Origin: Pseudanabaena frigida | GTDB taxonomy: Bacteria; Cyanobacteriota; Cyanobacteriia; Pseudanabaenales; Pseudanabaenaceae | Assembly (NCBI GenBank): GCA_003242085.1 | Contig: QBML01000010.1 | Span: 1 to 41,982 of the forward strand | Direction of reading: 5' to 3' | DNA length: 41,982 bases | In this document: positions 228-41,982 of the stretch, piece by piece | How the letters are laid out: each line of letters opens with the position of its first letter | Position numbering within the stretch: position 1 is the stretch's first letter | Made by a program: the position numbers and the translations under genes | The notes under the pieces: model-generated | What the model saw: the letters and a program-made list of their open reading frames with translations, nothing else | What the model was told of the DNA's origin: nothing | Databases searched by the model: none

Positions 228-2174
228 TTATTTTGTTCTTGCCGTAAGGCGATGCTGAATCTCCAGATAGACTAGCAATGCATTCACATCTGCAGGGTTG
301 ACCCCACCGATACGACTAGCCTGTCCAATGGTCATCGGACGGATTTTACTTAACTTCTCTCTCGATTCTTTAGAAAGAGTCTCGATCGAATTGTAATCAA
401 TATCAGTTGGTAATTTGCGATCGCTATGTTTAGCAACCTCCTCGATCTGATGCTCTTGACGTTGGATATAGCCCACATACTTCACTTCAATTTCCGCAGC
501 CAAACGTTCAAAGCGATTCAAATTTGGATCGGCTAAACCATAGTAAATCAATTCCGCATAGTTAAACTTAGGACGACGTAACAGATCCGAAAGCGAAATT
601 GCTCCACGAATTATTTCTCCTGTCTCGGCGGTGATTCTTTGCCCAAGTTCATCTTTCTCTTTAACGCGAGTTCCATTCAGACGTTCCACTTCAGCATAAA
701 CGCGCTCTTGCTTGTCGCAGAACAATTGCCAACGGCGATCGTCTACTAATCCGATCTCGCGTCCAATCGGAGTAAGTCTGCGATCGGCATTGTCCGATCG
801 CAAAATCAAGCGATATTCAGAACGACTGGTCAACATCCGATAGGGTTCGCGCAATTCCTTCGTGCAAAGATCGTCGATCAGTGTACCGATATAGCTACTA
901 GCGCGAGGTAATACCACCATCTCTTTACCCTTCGCAAATAGGGCCGCATTCATCCCCGCAATCAATCCCTGTGCGGCGGCTTCTTCGTAACCAGTAGTTC
1001 CATTAATCTGACCCGCACAAAACAGCCCTTCAATCAACTTCGTCATCAAAGTGGGATAGCACTGAGTCGCAGGAATATAGTCATATTCAACCGCATAGGC
1101 AGCACGAAGCATATGACAATTTTCTAACCCAGGGAGAGTTCTCAACATTTGCAATTGAATATTCTCAGGCATTCCCGTTGAGAAGCCTTGAATATAAAGC
1201 TCAGGAATCGTCCGACCTTCTGGCTCGATAAAAATTTGATGACTCTCTTTATCGGCAAAGCGCACAATTTTATCTTCGATGCTCGGACAATAACGCGGCC
1301 CCTTTGCATCGATAAAGCCACCATAGACAGGCGTAAGGTGCAGATTCTCACGAATGATACGATGGGTTTCGGCAGTAGTACGAGTTAAATAGCAATTCAT
1401 TTGCTCGCGTTCTACCCATGCACTCGGATCGAAACTGAACCAGTTATGCTCAGTATCCGAAGGTTGCACTTCCATTTTGCTATAGTCTACGCTGCGGCGA
1501 TCGACTCTTGCTGGTGTGCCTGTTTTGAGGCGATCGGTGACAAATCCCAAGGCATTAAGAGTTTCTGTAAGTCCCGCAACCGCAAACTCACCAGCCCGAC
1601 CGGCGGACATGGAGCGATTGCCTACCCAGATTTTGCCATTAAGAAATGTGCCTGTGGTCAGGATGACGGCTTTGCAAGCATAACCAACACCAAACTGAGT
1701 TTCAACGCCGATAATTCCTTGGTTCGCGTCCAGCAAAACATTAATTACCGTTCCTTCACGAACGGAGAGATTTGGCTCATTCTCAACTACCTGCTTCATT
1801 TCCGCAGCATATTCGCGCTTGTCGGTTTGCGCTCGCAATGCCCAGACTGCAGGCCCCCTCGAACTGTTGAGGATGCGTTTTTGTAAATAGGTGCGATCGG
1901 TGATTTTGCCAATTTCGCCGCCGAGGGCATCGACTTCATGGACGAGTTGTGATTTGGCGGGCCCCCCAACGGCGGGATTACAGGGTTGCCATGCAATGCG
2001 ATCGAGGTTGAGGGTGAGGAGTAAAGTTTTGCAGCCCATTCTTGCCGAGGCGAGGGCGGCTTCACAACCTGCATGTCCTGCACCAACGACAACCACCTCA
2101 AACTCATCAAGGAATTGCACTTGATTGGGTACTTGATTAGCTGAATTGATTACACCCTGTATATTCTCGCTCAT
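228..2174 (-). CDS. mnmG: tRNA uridine-5-carboxymethylaminomethyl(34) synthesis enzyme MnmG
   Basis: MnmG (GidA) is the FAD protein that, with the GTPase MnmE, installs the carboxymethylaminomethyl group on wobble U34 of certain tRNAs in the cytoplasm. The 648-residue product is close to the usual family length. An N-terminal FAD/Rossmann motif [12 protein letters not shown] lies near residues 30-41. The family signatures [29 protein letters not shown] and the C-terminal [19 protein letters not shown] are all present. The ATG at 2174 is the only early start that includes the full N-terminus. The first 20 or so residues before the FAD fold form a short extension. It stands alone, with a hairpin at 103-147 beyond its 3' end. 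No frameshift or missing motif was seen. Confidence 0.97.
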
Positions 2175-32970: not shown

Positions 32971-33558
32971 TCAAGAAGATCTCAACTTGTCAGGAATTTT
33001 TATTCCATACAAAAACATATGGAGTATTTCTAGCGGTGACATAGGTGGACTATGAATCATAATGTCGTCATGACTGGGATGGAGATGAAAACGAATATTT
33101 CGCTCATCGTTATTATGATCTGGCAGATTGAGATCGATTCTTAGAAAAGGAACTGCAATTTCATCTTCTCTTTTAGGAAACCTAATTTCAAAGTCGAATG
33201 CTATAATTTGAGCGTGTCTAGTGGTTTCATCGATAGTAATGGCAAAATCAAACCAGCAACCGTTATAAAGTTTGAAATGTGGGATATTTAATTCGCGATC
33301 CTGATTTTTATCTCCACCCATAATTTCTTGATAGCCACTTTTTGGGACTTGAGAAGATGGAGACATTTTAACTAACTTTAAAATTTCATCTAGCTTTGCA
33401 TTTAATATCTTGTCGTCACTTGCAGATGTCAGGCATTTTACAATCTCAGCTCTTAAAACTTTTGCACTTTTTACTTCAAGGAGTGTATTGCCAAGAGAAC
33501 GCTCTTGAATCCCCATACACATCTTTTCCCAACTATTTTTGGCGCTCAAGCAAGTCAC
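32971..33558 (-). CDS. Third gene of the overlapping ATPase cassette, unknown function
   Basis: The long reading (195 residues) starts at a GTG at 33558, overlapping the previous gene by 26 bases, but without a well-spaced ribosome site. The ATG at 33522 has GGGAAAAG just before it and may be the true start, giving 183 residues. The protein is mainly polar, with a beta-rich second half (WFDFAITIDETTRHAQIIAFDFEIRFP, FLRIDLNLPDHNND, RFHLHPSHDDIMIHSPPMSPLEILHMFLYG). The H-x-H-x-S-H-D-D cluster could be a metal site. No match to a named toxin, nuclease or antitoxin is evident. It is last in the operon. Confidence 0.75.
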   Translation of the reverse strand: MTCLSAKNSWEKMCMGIQERSLGNTLLEVKSAKVLRAEIVKCLTSASDDKILNAKLDEILKLVKMSPSSQVPKSGYQEIMGGDKNQDRELNIPHFKLYNGCWFDFAITIDETTRHAQIIAFDFEIRFPKREDEIAVPFLRIDLNLPDHNNDERNIRFHLHPSHDDIMIHSPPMSPLEILHMFLYGIKIPDKLRSS

Positions 33559-34135
33559 CTCGATTAAGTAAAATTAGCCACTCCCCATATTCTGGATCGG
33601 TTGGAAGTTGACGATTTTCAGCTAAAGCAATCACTTCGTCATTAGTTTTACCTGTCCATTTTTGTAGTGCTGCTAGACGGCGATCGCATTCTTCATCACT
33701 AAGTATTTCTGCATCTTTTTGTAAGTAATATATTCTTGCACCTAACCAACTCACAAAATTAGGAGCATTATGGAGCATTAAGTAATTAGCTTGCTCTGAA
33801 AGTACGAGTAACCCGCCCTTATTACCTTTATCTAATCGACTTCTCAAAGCATCGAAAATTTTCCATTCATTATTATCCCAATCATCTAATTTCCATAGCA
33901 AAAAATATTCTTCTGATGCTTCACTAATTTGATTAATTAAATCTCTTGCTCCAAACTTACCAGATATAGTAACTGTATTACATTCACTAAAAATCTCGAT
34001 AGTATCTTGCAATTCTGTAACTATCGATTCTATATCATTAATATCAACAACAAGAATCATCCAGATATTTCCATCTGGTCGTGCCCCAATTCTTTGCAAT
34101 AATTCATCTACGGAAGACAGTTTATCGATTAGCAC
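33533..34135 (-). CDS. Middle gene of the ATPase cassette, probably a degenerate ATPase-like partner
   Basis: This 200-residue protein starts at a GTG at 34135, with AAGGAG upstream and a 14-base overlap with the ATPase gene, so it is translationally coupled. Its first 120 residues (IWMILVVDINDIESIV, YFLLWKLDDWDN, KIFDALRSRLDKGNKGGLLVLSEQ) have the strand-helix pattern of a P-loop fold but lack a Walker A. The C-terminal 75 residues (SDEECDRRLAALQKWTGKTNDEVIALAENRQLPTDPEYGEWLILLNRGDLL) form a helical region that I recall from proteins next to similar ATPases in other bacteria, unverified. I do not recognise a named family. Confidence 0.75.
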   Translation of the reverse strand: MLIDKLSSVDELLQRIGARPDGNIWMILVVDINDIESIVTELQDTIEIFSECNTVTISGKFGARDLINQISEASEEYFLLWKLDDWDNNEWKIFDALRSRLDKGNKGGLLVLSEQANYLMLHNAPNFVSWLGARIYYLQKDAEILSDEECDRRLAALQKWTGKTNDEVIALAENRQLPTDPEYGEWLILLNRGDLLERQK

Positions 34136-35345
34136 GTCTCTTTATTCTCCTTGTATTTTCTATAAGTGGAACTAGTATTGGATGAATAGCAAAACGTTGA
34201 CGAGGATATCCATATTCTAAAATATGCCCTGTGAGCATTAATTCAAAATCTTCAGAAGTTCTAGGAGAAAATGATTTTTCAGTCATAACTTTAACAAGAA
34301 TATCTATGCTTAAATCAGCTAACCCAATTGTTTTTGAACGTTCTATAGCTGCAATTGCTTGGTTTGCATGTTGTTCCATAATTAGATCTGAGCCATCCAT
34401 ATAAGCATCTTCAATTGCTGCTTGACTAAGAGACATCAAATCTCGTAAAACCCCTCCAGAATTCAATATTAGTAATTTTCTTGCCCCTTGATTAATGAGG
34501 TTTTCAGGATCTCGTACCTTAAAAACCTCTACAAAAAATTGTCGTGCTTCATCATCTTCTAATACATCTAAATATGGCAAGAAATAAAAATTCTCTGTGT
34601 TTTTTGCAATATTTACCCTCTCCGTGTATAGCGCTACAATAGAACCTACAAGAATTGCTCCAAGTCCATGTTTATTAATTTCAATTACGTCATCAAGAAC
34701 AGGTTTAACAAATGTTTTAGCTTCTCTTAGCCTATCTAGACTATCAAAAAGAAATACAACCTGTTTGGCTAGTTTCTCATTAACGAATGTACTTGTCTTG
34801 ATAAAAGCTTGTAAAACTGAACTTCGATTTTCTCGCGTCTCAGTAGTAGTATATGATTGGGAATTTCCAGTGTTTAGCTTACTCCCTATAGCCCCCATAC
34901 CTTGAGCTAATCTTTGTTGATGGTGCGTAACAATTTCGCTATTTCCATATAGTAATCTCTCAAATATTCTCTTGGAATCATTTAGTTCAGAGGTATTGTA
35001 TCCTTGCAATGTTTTTATTAATTCAAGACCTGTTATTGCAATTAAAGCTCCAGATTGGAGCTCGGAAATATCAGTAAAAAGACTAATATCAACATAGATA
35101 GCTTTAATATCTTCTAACTCATTTAAAGCCTCTTGCGTTAATAGTAATTGTGTTGTTTTTCCCGAACCAATACCACCAAACAATAAATGTACTGAAGAAG
35201 GACGAAGTGCAATTTTACCAGTAATAACTCCTACAGGATTATCGGGCAGATTGACATAAAATCCCCGCTCGACAGCGCGTTGAGGATTAGAAGTACCTTC
35301 AAAAGCTGATATCAGCCTGCGGAAAAGTTTCAGGCGATCGGACAT
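34122..35345 (-). CDS. P-loop ATPase, lead gene of a three-gene cassette
   Basis: This 407-residue protein is an AAA/STAND-like ATPase. Walker A is GGIGSGKT at residues 57-64 (LLFGGIGSGKTTQLLL). Walker B is VVFLFDSLDRL near residue 200. A sensor-like LVGSIVALYTER and LDVLEDDEARQFFVEVFKVRD follow. The last 100 residues look helical and winged-helix-like. The N-terminus (LFRRLISAFEGTSNPQRAVERGFYVNLP) precedes the P-loop without a separate effector domain. It shares its 3' end with the next gene (14-base overlap). The cassette is noticeably AT-rich against its surroundings and holds only one HIP1 octamer that I could see, consistent with acquisition. Confidence 0.85.
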   Translation of the reverse strand: MSDRLKLFRRLISAFEGTSNPQRAVERGFYVNLPDNPVGVITGKIALRPSSVHLLFGGIGSGKTTQLLLTQEALNELEDIKAIYVDISLFTDISELQSGALIAITGLELIKTLQGYNTSELNDSKRIFERLLYGNSEIVTHHQQRLAQGMGAIGSKLNTGNSQSYTTTETRENRSSVLQAFIKTSTFVNEKLAKQVVFLFDSLDRLREAKTFVKPVLDDVIEINKHGLGAILVGSIVALYTERVNIAKNTENFYFLPYLDVLEDDEARQFFVEVFKVRDPENLINQGARKLLILNSGGVLRDLMSLSQAAIEDAYMDGSDLIMEQHANQAIAAIERSKTIGLADLSIDILVKVMTEKSFSPRTSEDFELMLTGHILEYGYPRQRFAIHPILVPLIENTRRIKRRANR

Positions 35346-38277: not shown

Positions 38278-39114
38278 CTACCCCACTTTGCGCTCAGTCA
38301 CTAGGGTGAGGCTTGTCCATCCTCCTTTATCGTCATAGGCTCGGATCATCCGTTGATGCAGGTTTGGCTCTAATAGCCACGATAAAGATAGGCGAAATGG
38401 CTGACGGGTGATTATCGCCTCAGGACAAGTTATCGAAGCCCCATCGGGCAAGAATAGTGTTTGTGTCGGCAATTTATCGCGATCAAAGTGCAATATTTGC
38501 GGATTGATCGCATCAATCGTCGCGATCGAGGTGATGTTTCTTACTCCCATTTGATTCTGCATTTGTAATGACATTATGACAAGATCGCCATCTTTTTTCC
38601 ATTCTGTAATAGTGCAAGAGACTGCTGGTTCGAGCCAATCAGATAAGAGCACAATTGCTTCACCTTCCCATTTACCTAGTAAAGCATCAAGAGTTAAAGC
38701 TGGACGTTCGGGTGTGGCTCTCTGCGGTAAATGTTCGCGTATGAGGACAAATCGCTCCAGTTGACTAGATTGGTTATAAAGCGTGACCAAACGCATACGC
38801 CGATCGCCATAGATCAAGCCCAACTCCGCTCCAAATTCTGTATATGGGGCAAATTGCAAAGCCCCTTGCGAAAAAGCACCACTCTCAAAAAAAACAGTGC
38901 TTTTGTTAAGTGAGCGATATTCTAAAACCAAATCATCGGGATGACCGTCATAAAAGCGGCGCACAACTTGGCGTACTGTTCGATTATCTTCCTTAAGTTC
39001 CAGAGTAGTTTCACTAGGAATATCTTCTAAAATTTCGCCTCTTGTAGATAATCGAGTAAATGAACCTTGCCAACAACCAAGATTTTGCAGCAAACATTCC
39101 CATTGCGATCGCAT
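38278..39114 (-). CDS. DUF3598-family protein
   Basis: This 278-residue soluble protein has the DUF3598 pattern: MRSQWECLLQNLGCWQGSFTRLSTRGE at the start, then repeated beta-strand blocks (TLELKEDNRTVRQVVRRFY, VLEYRSLNKSTVFFESGAFSQG) and a second barrel half beginning at LLGKWEGEAIVLLSDW. DUF3598 is common in cyanobacteria and is thought to be a lipocalin-like (calycin) fold, related by fold to the CpcS/CpeS bilin lyases. A specific ligand is not known. It reads as two calycin-like halves. It is first in a probable pair with the DUF4436 gene. Confidence 0.8.
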   Translation of the reverse strand: MRSQWECLLQNLGCWQGSFTRLSTRGEILEDIPSETTLELKEDNRTVRQVVRRFYDGHPDDLVLEYRSLNKSTVFFESGAFSQGALQFAPYTEFGAELGLIYGDRRMRLVTLYNQSSQLERFVLIREHLPQRATPERPALTLDALLGKWEGEAIVLLSDWLEPAVSCTITEWKKDGDLVIMSLQMQNQMGVRNITSIATIDAINPQILHFDRDKLPTQTLFLPDGASITCPEAIITRQPFRLSLSWLLEPNLHQRMIRAYDDKGGWTSLTLVTERKVG

Positions 39115-39340: not shown

Positions 39341-39715
39341 ATGGCTGAGGATAATTCAATAGGATTAGCAGAATTAATCGAGCAGGTCAAACAAGAATTG
39401 CTATCAACCTCTATAAATAATAAAACTGAGATTCCCTTTCTTAGTGTAGATTCAGTTGAGTTGGAGCTACAAGTTACGGTGAAGCGAGAGGGAAAAGCAG
39501 GAATCAAAATTCAAATTTTAGAGGCTGGTGGCAGTATAGGTCGAGATGATGTCCAGAAAGTGAAAGTGTCGCTCTCGCCTTTACTCAGTAAAGAGAAACT
39601 GTTGGAAGATTATCAGAAGCGTCATCCTGAGCGAATGCAAAAACTGGCTGACAAAAGTTTAGGGGCATTGTTTAAAAATGTTGATGATGGTAGTTCAGTT
39701 GGTGATCAGTTCTAA
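39341..39715 (+). CDS. Trypsin-co-occurring domain 2 (trypco2)-like small protein
   Basis: Read from ATG 39341 (AAGG 7 bases upstream; a GTG at 39338 adds one residue), the product is 124 residues. An N-terminal helix (GLAELIEQVKQELLS) is followed by a beta hairpin pair SVELELQVTVKREGKAGIKIQILEAGG and VQKVKVSLSPL. This matches the trypco2 pattern as I remember it, a small domain found beside trypsin- and CHAT-like peptidases in predicted conflict systems. The last 40 residues are charged. The gene ends 21 bases before the CHAT-CHASE2 start, so they form an operon. The domain assignment is by recall and unverified. Confidence 0.75.
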   Translation: MAEDNSIGLAELIEQVKQELLSTSINNKTEIPFLSVDSVELELQVTVKREGKAGIKIQILEAGGSIGRDDVQKVKVSLSPLLSKEKLLEDYQKRHPERMQKLADKSLGALFKNVDDGSSVGDQF

Positions 39716-39736
39716 TTTAGGAAAAAGCAAAAGGTT

Positions 39737-41982
39737 ATGGAACTATTCAAACTACGTTTATCTCCTGTAGAGATGGCTAGCCGATTAAAAGCAACGGTAA
39801 TTCATTCTACTGCGGGTGAACAGGAGGATGAATCTTCTTTGCCGTTTATAGATAATGGGAAAGACTGGCGAACTACTTTAATTAAAACATTGGAATCAGC
39901 TAAGTTCAACGCCAATGATTTCCAACAAGATGGAGAGCAGGATTGGATGGTGAAAGCTGGTTTTTTGACGGAAGATCGACAGGCTTTTCATCCAGACTTA
40001 CTTAAAAATATTGGGCGATCGCTATATCAATCCCTTTTTCCCTCAGGGGGAAAGTTAGAGAGTATTTTGAAATCAGCTCTCCACTTTTCCGAATCTAAAA
40101 ACACTAATTTGCATATTCAGTTAACTTTTCAGGAAGACTCGGTAAGCCGTTCGCGCTTTGCTGACTATCCTTGGGAACTTCTGCACGATGGCAAGAATTT
40201 TTTAGCTCATCGGCGGGTTACTTTCTCTAGATACATAGCCTATGAGTCAGTTCCACCTAATCTTCCCGCTACTGAGAAACTCAATGTTTTGCTTGTCTCT
40301 TCTGCGGCTTTTGATGCAGATCAAGGGTTAAAAAAACTATCAAAGCAAGAACAGCAAGCTATTGCGTTAGGTTTAGAGAAAGCACAAACCTATGGACATA
40401 TTAAATTAGTGCAATTAGAGTTTGCAACGCTCCAATGTTTGCGAACATATCTAACTGAACATCAAGGAATTGATACCCCTCATGTTTTGCATTTTGATGG
40501 TCATGGATTGTTCGGTAAGCGATGTCCAAACCCACAGTGTCGAACTATTCATAAAGGAATTAAGGTAGAGCGATGCAAAGTTTGTAGCACTCCTCTACCT
40601 GAAGCTCAAGGGTATTTAGCCTTTGAGACAGATGCAGGTTCACCAGACTATGTTAGTGCAGAGGAACTTGGATTTCTCTTGCAAACAGCAACAGCTACGG
40701 ACGGGGCATCTCAGTCGTTCGGGATTACGTTAGCAGTACTGAGTGCCTGTCAGTCAGGTATGTCTGTAGTTGGCGATTCAGTTTTCAACGGCACTGCTCA
40801 AAACTTGATCAGTCATCGTATACCTGCTGTTGTCGCTATGCAATATTCTGTCTCAGTTGATGGGGCAACAAAATTCGCCGAACAATTTTATAGATCGCTG
40901 GGACAAAAAAACTCTCTTGCCCTAGCAGTAAGTCAGGGACGAGAGGCAATGGGGTTGGCTACCCAGCAATGGTTTCGTCCAGTACTTTACCTCCGTTGGG
41001 GGGATAATGTTGGGGGACAAATTTTCGATATTCTCCCGCCAAGTGATTTACGGCAGTTGCCGAGAAGGAGACTCGTTGGGATAGCTGCTTCAGTTACATT
41101 TTTGATTTTTGTATTACGCATTCTGGGAATGCTGCAAGGTCTAGAACTTAAGGTATATGATCGCTTAATGGGTTTACGGCTTCTTGATGAAGGGCGAGAT
41201 GATAGTATACTAATTGTTCAAATTACAGACAATGACGTAAAAAACCAGAAGACTCAAGAAACTGTTGGGAACCTTCAAAATACAACTTTGAATAGTCTTC
41301 TAGAAAAGTTAGAAGAATTTCAACCTAGCCTTATCGGATTGGACGTATATCGAGATTCCGCAAAAGATACTATTTTGGGAAATCGTCTTAAGGGAGATCT
41401 TATACCTGTTGTGGGTGTTTGTAAGGTTCCATATAGAGATATAAAAGGTGATACCCCTTCTCCTGATATTCCACCAGCAAGAATTGGATTCTCCGATTTT
41501 ACTTATGACAGTGACGATGTTATCCGTCGTTATGTAATGTCAATGGAGACGAAAGAGAATGCTACTTGCACAGCGAAGGAATCATTTAGCCTCGTGTTAG
41601 CAAAGATGTACCTAAAATCAAAAAACTATCAATACAAGAAGCCAATTTACAATCCATACGAAACCTTAAAATTTAATTCCATATCTTTTCTACAAATTCA
41701 AAGCCCAATAGGTGGCTATCAGACAGAAGATATGACAGGGTACCAAGTGCTACTGAATTATCGATCAAGAGGGCCAATTTCAATTGACGGAGATCTATGT
41801 TTTAGCCAGAAAATCGCTAAATGTGTAAATGTAGAGGATATTTTAAATAATAGAGTGGAGGCAGAAAAAATTAAGGGTAAGATTGTATTGATTGGATACA
41901 GTGGTACAAATATTTCAGCAACTCGTGATAGTCACATGACCCCTTATGGAAATATGTCGGGGGTATTGATTCACGCAAATAT
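39737..41982 (+). CDS. CHAT-CHASE2 protein (3' end beyond window)
   Basis: The frame stays open from ATG 39737 to the last base, giving 748 full codons, so the gene is incomplete here. Residues up to about 435 are a CHAT (caspase-like) peptidase: FADYPWELLHDGK upstream, the catalytic-type His in HFDGHG (His256) and the Cys in SACQSG (Cys338). Between them sits a treble-clef-like set of cysteines (C263, C268, C280, C283) likely binding zinc. One transmembrane helix follows (about 446-466), then a CHASE2-type extracytoplasmic sensor (LKVYDRLMGLR, SILIVQITDNDV, SLIGLDVYRD, GKIVLIGYSG). Further helices and any output domain lie outside. It is downstream of the trypco2-like gene. Confidence 0.9.
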   Translation, partial: MELFKLRLSPVEMASRLKATVIHSTAGEQEDESSLPFIDNGKDWRTTLIKTLESAKFNANDFQQDGEQDWMVKAGFLTEDRQAFHPDLLKNIGRSLYQSLFPSGGKLESILKSALHFSESKNTNLHIQLTFQEDSVSRSRFADYPWELLHDGKNFLAHRRVTFSRYIAYESVPPNLPATEKLNVLLVSSAAFDADQGLKKLSKQEQQAIALGLEKAQTYGHIKLVQLEFATLQCLRTYLTEHQGIDTPHVLHFDGHGLFGKRCPNPQCRTIHKGIKVERCKVCSTPLPEAQGYLAFETDAGSPDYVSAEELGFLLQTATATDGASQSFGITLAVLSACQSGMSVVGDSVFNGTAQNLISHRIPAVVAMQYSVSVDGATKFAEQFYRSLGQKNSLALAVSQGREAMGLATQQWFRPVLYLRWGDNVGGQIFDILPPSDLRQLPRRRLVGIAASVTFLIFVLRILGMLQGLELKVYDRLMGLRLLDEGRDDSILIVQITDNDVKNQKTQETVGNLQNTTLNSLLEKLEEFQPSLIGLDVYRDSAKDTILGNRLKGDLIPVVGVCKVPYRDIKGDTPSPDIPPARIGFSDFTYDSDDVIRRYVMSMETKENATCTAKESFSLVLAKMYLKSKNYQYKKPIYNPYETLKFNSISFLQIQSPIGGYQTEDMTGYQVLLNYRSRGPISIDGDLCFSQKIAKCVNVEDILNNRVEAEKIKGKIVLIGYSGTNISATRDSHMTPYGNMSGVLIHAN

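Follow-up and report, generated by a model that had tools for sequence, protein, structure and literature searches.

What is a small Trypco2 gene coupled to when it stands directly ahead of a gene for a membrane-bound CHAT peptidase with a CHASE2 sensor, and what could such an operon do for a cyanobacterial cell? The preliminary description of this DNA singled out the pairing of Trypco2 with CHASE2-type sensing. The two do share one operon here, but Trypco2 is tied to the CHAT part (43 of 47 testable relatives), and CHASE2 occurs in just 4 of 50 relatives. The unusual feature is instead a domain swap, which places a Trypco2-coupled CHAT effector on a CHASE2-DUF928 envelope module. With a probability of roughly 0.55, we read the locus as a caspase-like protease switch, anchored in the membrane and gated by a sensor, of the type seen in bacterial conflict or regulated death.

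The operon and its predicted peptidase

The window, that is, the whole analysed stretch of 41,982 nucleotides, comprises positions 1-41982 of its contig (G000:C1), and the genome was searched beyond the window end. The features of the locus are as follows.

38278..39114, minus strand: DUF3598/BFA1_C gene (Pfam), left flank of the insert, outside the system
39341..39715, plus strand: Trypco2 gene, 124 aa, PF19631 at 66.2 bits
39737..41982, plus strand: window part (748 aa) of the CHAT-TM-CHASE2 gene; whole gene 39737-42310 of the contig (L002 3738-6311), 857 aa
39737..41041, plus strand: N-terminal region and CHAT peptidase domain, aa 1-435, PF12770, AlphaFold2 pLDDT 83.8
40502..40504, plus strand: His256 codon, HFDGHG motif, same in 40/40 aligned members
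40523..40585, plus strand: zinc-ribbon-like insert, Cys263/268/280/283, from cysteine conservation; metal binding putative
40748..40750, plus strand: Cys338 codon, SACQSG motif, same in 40/40
41066..41143, plus strand: membrane helix, aa 444-469, Kyte-Doolittle maximum 2.3
41096..41982, plus strand: window part of the CHASE2 domain, PF05226; Pfam match 41096-42088 in the genome
Overlapping the CHAT-CHASE2 gene end by 4 bp, plus strand: DUF928 gene, 299 aa, 173.5 bits
Contig 43231-47235 (L002:7232-11236), convergent: POTRA-TPR-CHAT gene, 1334 aa, with three POTRA stretches, TPR and a C-terminal CHAT (225.8 bits)

The suspected trypco2-like identity of the small gene was borne out by PF19631, which matches residues 7-80 well over its gathering cut-off (66.2 against 24.2 bits) and finds no other protein in the 5.39-Mb genome. 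The Trypco2 stop codon (39713-39715) lies 21 bp before the CHAT start at 39737, exactly the spacing first described. The predicted structure of Trypco2 was poor (pLDDT 59) and too weak for a fold search; PADLOC gave no match to the protein, and no PDB relative was found by sequence (best E 0.14). The CHAT gene had correctly been recognised as cut by the window end, and its frame, for which a downstream frameshift had been considered, stays open rightwards to its true end at 42310. Extension of the sequence thus yielded an intact CHAT-TM-CHASE2 gene, followed by the DUF928 gene and then the POTRA-TPR-CHAT gene.

The CHAT domain matches PF12770 with 76.7 bits (gathering 24), and the presence of CHASE2 was confirmed by PF05226 with 147 bits on the window part and 183 bits on the genome. 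The single membrane helix of the preliminary description is present in the window (444-469), but a hydrophobic C-terminus (795-844) follows past the window end, and these two segments bound the CHASE2 domain. Residues 1-120 have no Pfam match at E<1. The proposed His256/Cys338 dyad was correctly numbered, and both residues are invariant in the 40 aligned members, as are His252 and the ribbon cysteines Cys263, Cys268 and Cys283; Cys280 is a cysteine in 39 of 40. The zinc-ribbon-like insert directly follows the catalytic HFDGHG motif. The His-Cys dyad is intact, and proteolysis is predicted. The AlphaFold2 model of the CHAT part (window 39737-41059; pLDDT 83.8, pTM 0.86) finds its best predicted structural match in SAVED-CHAT (8tl0; Z 20.0, 2.6 A, 197 residues), followed by Craspase TPR-CHAT (Z 19.5), separase (Z 17.6) and, at lower scores, caspases. 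DdvA, a transmembrane anti-sigma factor of similar fold, is matched as well (8rw5; Z 14.8 over 267 residues). PADLOC reported a partial SAVED_CHAT match (PDLC02016, 173-252 of 498) on the CHAT part alone, which recurs in 39 of 40 CHAT members (best E 3e-10); a SAVED domain was absent from the CHAT-CHASE2 protein in the profile scan.

The CHAT family, its Trypco2 partner and its exchanged tails

Relatives of the CHAT head were sought by a pattern scan of one genome per species (84,980 species). Among the best 80 of 438 matches (78 distinct loci), 47 were cyanobacterial CHATs with at least 41% identity, after which identity dropped to about 33% in Chloroflexi. Together with the window and two genomes missed by the scan (L037, L039), they form a tight family of at least 50 members, all cyanobacterial, with a conserved zinc-ribbon-like insert next to the catalytic His; because the scan missed these two, 50 is no full count. 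The ribbon was rejected as a general CHAT feature, as seven aligned DUF1822-type CHATs are without it. A ribbon-type CHAT also occurs in a Chloroflexi genome (L110:7605-9525), with Trypco2 directly downstream (47.8 bits) rather than upstream.

Trypco2 was counted as coupled when a profile built from a Trypco2 alignment (A2) matched on the same strand at most 600 bp upstream. By this measure, it precedes 43 of the 50 members, or 43 of the 47 with upstream DNA, three genes (L087, L088, L094) starting at a contig end; the gap is 2-44 bp in 37 of the 43 pairs. The four remaining members (L078, L096, L099, L108) have upstream DNA yet no intact Trypco2, which suggests that the CHAT may not always need this partner. 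In L108, only a Trypco2 tail remains (six-frame translation, 18.7 bits) and the CHAT itself is truncated. None of the 31 more distant CHATs among the best 80 of 438, L110 included, has Trypco2 upstream. In a Trypco2 search of 194 genomes of the class, the window CHAT and eight others, 42-65% identical to it, align end to end; these nine close CHATs (601-722 bits) all lie behind Trypco2, and the next match scores 119 bits. Since the nine had themselves built the model, the news is that no tenth without Trypco2 appeared among the 194 genomes. Trypco2 occurs in 18 of these genomes with 21 genes, nine before the ribbon CHAT family, five before a trypsin-like gene (L047-L051, judged by eye from an LTAAH-type motif rather than by profile) and the others cut by contig ends or beside other or barely examined neighbours. 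Past residue 80, Trypco2 has a C-terminal extension in L044 and in the A2 rows linked to CHAT, but not in four trypsin-linked rows or L052. Trypco2 is coupled to the ribbon CHAT family, not to CHASE2 sensing, and its scope is widened from a partner of trypsin to a partner of a defined CHAT family. At L045:7709-9877, a Trypco2 gene is followed by a CHAT-SIR2_2 protein of a different CHAT subtype.

Behind the CHAT head, the tails are swapped. Pfam scans of the C-terminal parts of 31 of the 50 members gave NB-ARC in seven (several with TPR or APAF1_C), CHASE2 in four, VMAP in three (one also with EAD9), EAD9 without VMAP in three (one with TIR) and, below the cut-off, in one further, bDLD3, NACHT and C14 caspase in two each, EAD1, FGE, TPR, HEAT and DUF4062 in one each, and no Pfam family in two. 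A custom CHASE2 profile found no further CHASE2 fusion among all 50 members, the L075 and L076 genes being cut by contig ends. On the CHAT tree, built without the truncated L108 gene, the tail labels are scattered (25 changes against a shuffled mean of 27). The next genes scanned at L038, L040 and L042 encode an AAA ATPase in all three, with bpMoxR below the cut-off in two, accompanied by a vWA and an iSTAND gene at L040 and by an FGE protein at L038 and L042. The scattered tails and conflict-type neighbours suggest that Trypco2-CHAT is an effector plugged into many conflict or apoptosome-like assemblies. For the membrane signal or death-like pathway proposed earlier, the evidence is thus one of association, namely the fusion of Trypco2-coupled CHAT elsewhere to NB-ARC, NACHT, the death-like bDLD3, EAD, TIR and VMAP. 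One ribbon-family CHAT (L093:8001-10052) has TCAD3 at its start, followed by TIR and EAD9; TCAD3 is matched in 7 of 40 aligned members.

Origins of the CHASE2 form, its POTRA neighbour and the insert

The four CHASE2 members belong to the window genome, Nostocales HT-58-2 (L063), Stenomitos rutilans (L065) and Tildeniella nuda (L088), the last with the DNA upstream of CHAT missing. All four have DUF928 downstream and a neighbouring POTRA-TPR-CHAT gene, which in Stenomitos lies upstream and divergent; the neighbour comparison yielded no row for L115. We read the start of the DUF928 protein as hydrophobic and signal-peptide-like. Eight other CHASE2/DUF928 places fetched from the class comprised six with CHAT-CHASE2 followed by DUF928 and two of other layouts; all six operons carry a DUF1822-like gene ahead of CHAT-CHASE2, and four an additional small gene (DUF1822 was called by Pfam in two scanned operons and by a custom profile elsewhere, the weakest at 62.6 bits in L172). 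In a tree of 22 CHASE2 domains, the four window-type domains join the six DUF1822-type ones at 100/98, apart from the N-terminal CHASE2 of cyclases and others, so that derivation from cyclase or GGDEF CHASE2 proteins of the same genome was unsupported. The genome's own DUF1822-type paralogue (L062) sits on a very long branch outside this group, and a tree constrained to keep all CHAT-CHASE2 together was not clearly rejected (p 0.08). A single origin of the four fusions is compatible with both trees (AU p 0.36 for CHAT, 0.26 for CHASE2). The seven DUF1822-type CHAT heads score just 10-14 bits against the Trypco2-CHAT profile. As CHASE2 groups with the DUF1822-type and the CHAT head does not, two sources were joined in one gene. 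On this sequence evidence, the window gene is a chimera of a conflict-type CHAT head, from the Trypco2-coupled effector family, and an envelope-sensor CHASE2 tail, which together with DUF928 derives from the CHAT-CHASE2-DUF928 module of other cyanobacteria.

The shared tail gives some room to a transcriptional switch, in which a CHASE2 ligand would make CHAT cleave a regulator, such as an anti-sigma factor, and alter expression without killing. The CHASE2-DUF928 half is common to the DUF1822-type operons, where the DUF1822-like gene is constant (6/6), a small gene precedes in 4/6, and the small gene, scanned in two operons, matched sigma-70 below threshold in one; moreover, the accessible text of PMC8195603 proposes such a role for EACC2-caspase/ECF-sigma/DUF1822 systems. 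At the window locus, however, the small gene and DUF1822 are both missing, and the CHAT head belongs to another clade. We consider this role possible but rather unlikely here. The DUF1822-type relatives may act in routine gene regulation; the conflict-type protease switch that we prefer for the window derives from its CHAT head.

The neighbouring gene may bear on the envelope. The window POTRA region (aa 70-352) is 71% identical to another protein of its own genome, which its PDB relatives identify as BamA/Omp85 (Alr2269 POTRA 3mc8, E 8.8e-86; BamA chains). The HT-58-2 POTRA is 67% identical to its own Omp85 (3mc8, E 2.7e-136) and 44% to the window POTRA-TPR-CHAT. In a POTRA tree of 30 rows, the window POTRA groups with 23 Omp85 of its genus at 100/100 (its placement inside or beside them is not fixed), and the HT-58-2 POTRA with its own Omp85 at 100/98; one clade of the four POTRA regions was rejected (p 4e-84). 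For the Stenomitos POTRA, identity is 51% with its own Omp85 and 52% with the Tildeniella Omp85; the Tildeniella POTRA reaches 44% with its own Omp85, 46% with the Stenomitos Omp85 and 44% with the HT-58-2 POTRA. Both are long branches that join each other. For the CHAT halves of the four proteins, one origin was not rejected (p 0.22). These identities and groupings indicate that, in at least two of four loci, the POTRA part was either swapped with that of the host Omp85 or acquired from it. Such host matching would not be expected of an old paralogue; functional matching to the host Omp85 machinery, gene conversion or a decoy would fit. Distant CHAT matches were rejected as further POTRA-TPR-CHAT genes, as none of 16 fetched regions had a POTRA part, and a full-length search of 388 genomes, in which G264 is the L088 genome (84/84 60-mers) and G142 the L065 genome (73/73), returned mainly CHAT-only or POTRA-only matches; the POTRA check left out the long open frames of G040, G002, G103 and G269.

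Plant immune receptors carry integrated decoys. By analogy, the four-gene block might be an envelope-guarding death switch whose bait would be POTRA domains acquired from the host Omp85/BamA, a speculative reading that we hold to be unlikely. An attack on, or failure of, outer-membrane assembly would then be felt by the POTRA decoy, a signal via DUF928 and CHASE2 would fire the cytoplasmic Trypco2-controlled CHAT protease, and a move of the block to a new host would be followed by replacement of the POTRA part with that of the new host.

Between the DUF3598 and histidine-kinase-like flanks (window 39114 to contig 47625), 8.5 kb hold the four genes. The flank genes were sought in 20 same-genus genomes, the window genome included, and ten others with both on one contig were fetched. 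In seven of the ten, the flanks lie side by side, 57-136 bp apart; this empty site identifies the four-gene block as an insert. The other three (L191, L192, L196) carry other genes there, with TPR genes in all three, two of them with TPR genes giving NB-ARC matches just below the cut-off, and PDDEXK_2 transposases in two. The site resembles an insertion hotspot. No match to the Trypco2, CHAT-CHASE2 or DUF928 proteins was obtained in any of the ten stretches, Trypco2 was found in none of 15 other same-genus genomes, and no mobile-element ends, target duplication or repeats were recognised at the insert borders. Elsewhere in the window (33533-35345, minus strand), an overlapping gene pair encodes a 407-aa P-loop ATPase, with a weak PADLOC mad8 match (E 9.5e-5) and sub-threshold ATPase_2, and a 200-aa protein without a Pfam family.

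Location on an insert, and a small gene immediately upstream at 2-44 bp in 37 of 43 pairs, would also suit an addiction or toxin-antitoxin-like unit, with Trypco2 as an antitoxin-like inhibitor and no true external signal. We regard this as distinctly improbable, as the sensor or adaptor tails vary yet are nearly always present (2 of 31 have no Pfam family), an argument for gated activation. The least probable role is that of a HetF-like housekeeping regulator in cell division or differentiation: in the available part of PMC8406250, HetF is a CHAT protein attached to the membrane in a filamentous cyanobacterium, and NCBIfam HetF (NF045509) matches weakly, but its 37.4 bits compare with an equivalog cut-off of 1200, and the patchy occurrence (Trypco2 in 0/15 other same-genus genomes) on an insert argues against it.

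Proposed switch and comparison with known systems

In the sensor-gated protease switch that we favour, CHASE2 and DUF928 would lie outside and CHAT inside the cytoplasmic membrane. An envelope event would be sensed by CHASE2 and periplasmic DUF928, perhaps together with the neighbouring POTRA-TPR-CHAT protein; the signal would cross the membrane helix and activate the cytoplasmic His256/Cys338 peptidase, which might then cleave itself or a few host proteins and lead to cell arrest or death, possibly in defence. Trypco2 would be a dedicated peptidase partner that keeps the enzyme inactive or presents its substrate, and the ribbon beside the catalytic His may be part of the Trypco2 control surface. 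In animal apoptosis, death signalling through a membrane receptor is a defining feature. The Trypco2-CHAT effector is attached, within one family, either to internal apoptosome-like NB-ARC/NACHT modules or to an outside-facing receptor, which would allow intrinsic and extrinsic triggering of one effector to be compared. Through the window block, events at the cell envelope may be able to set off a death-type protease; given the host matching of the POTRA domains, what is guarded could be outer-membrane assembly.

In the open-licence PMC literature, we found no description of Trypco2 with CHAT-CHASE2-DUF928 or with the ribbon CHAT family, none of CHASE2 together with 'CHAT domain', and none of the Omp85-like POTRA-TPR-CHAT gene, which was not searched by that name. 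The accessible part of PMC10907252 mentions a DGR locus in which Trypco2 lies near a CHAT-TIR target; thus, Trypco2 near CHAT is not wholly new.

Like HetF, as described in the available text of PMC8406250, the window protein is a cyanobacterial CHAT protein with one membrane segment, but HetF has TPR rather than CHASE2, and the window match is far under the equivalog cut-off. The Trichodesmium metacaspase-CHASE2 protein (PMC2853523) likewise combines a caspase-superfamily peptidase with CHASE2 in a cyanobacterium, but is described as a metacaspase, and Trypco2 is not mentioned in the accessible part of that source. The SAVED-CHAT and Craspase (TPR-CHAT/Csx29) CRISPR proteases, the nearest solved folds to the predicted model, are sensor-gated CHAT peptidases; unlike them, the CHAT-CHASE2 protein has no SAVED or TPR match, no CRISPR genes were seen in its locus, and gating by membrane CHASE2 is predicted.

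The EACC2-caspase systems of Kaur et al. 2021 (PMC8195603), insofar as that source was available, carry CHASE2 tails on caspase heads with DUF1822 and sigma genes beside such heads, and share with the window protein a caspase-type head and a variable C-terminal sensor that includes CHASE2; we take the DUF1822 operons reported here to be these systems. The CHASE2 halves of the window-type and DUF1822-type group at 100/98, but the window CHAT is of a different clade with a ribbon, and Trypco2 replaces DUF1822 and the sigma-like gene; DUF1822 and ECF sigma genes were absent from the window locus, and no EACC2-named model appeared in any scan.

Lastly, Trypco2 owes its name to genes lying beside trypsin-like peptidases in VMAP systems (Kaur et al. 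2020, PMC7159879), and as in the vWA-MoxR (VMAP/iSTAND) ternary conflict systems of that paper's accessible text, Trypco2 stands directly before a peptidase here. MoxR, vWA and VMAP are absent from the window locus, where the neighbours are DUF928, POTRA-TPR-CHAT and then a histidine-kinase-like gene. Elsewhere, the ribbon CHAT head is fused to VMAP (L109, L107, L100) or EAD9 (L102, L105), with iSTAND, AAA and vWA genes following in L102 and AAA and an FGE gene in L109 and L107. The available text of PMC7159879 pairs Trypco with trypsin-like peptidases and caspases with alpha/beta-hydrolase, whereas Trypco2 is paired here with CHAT.
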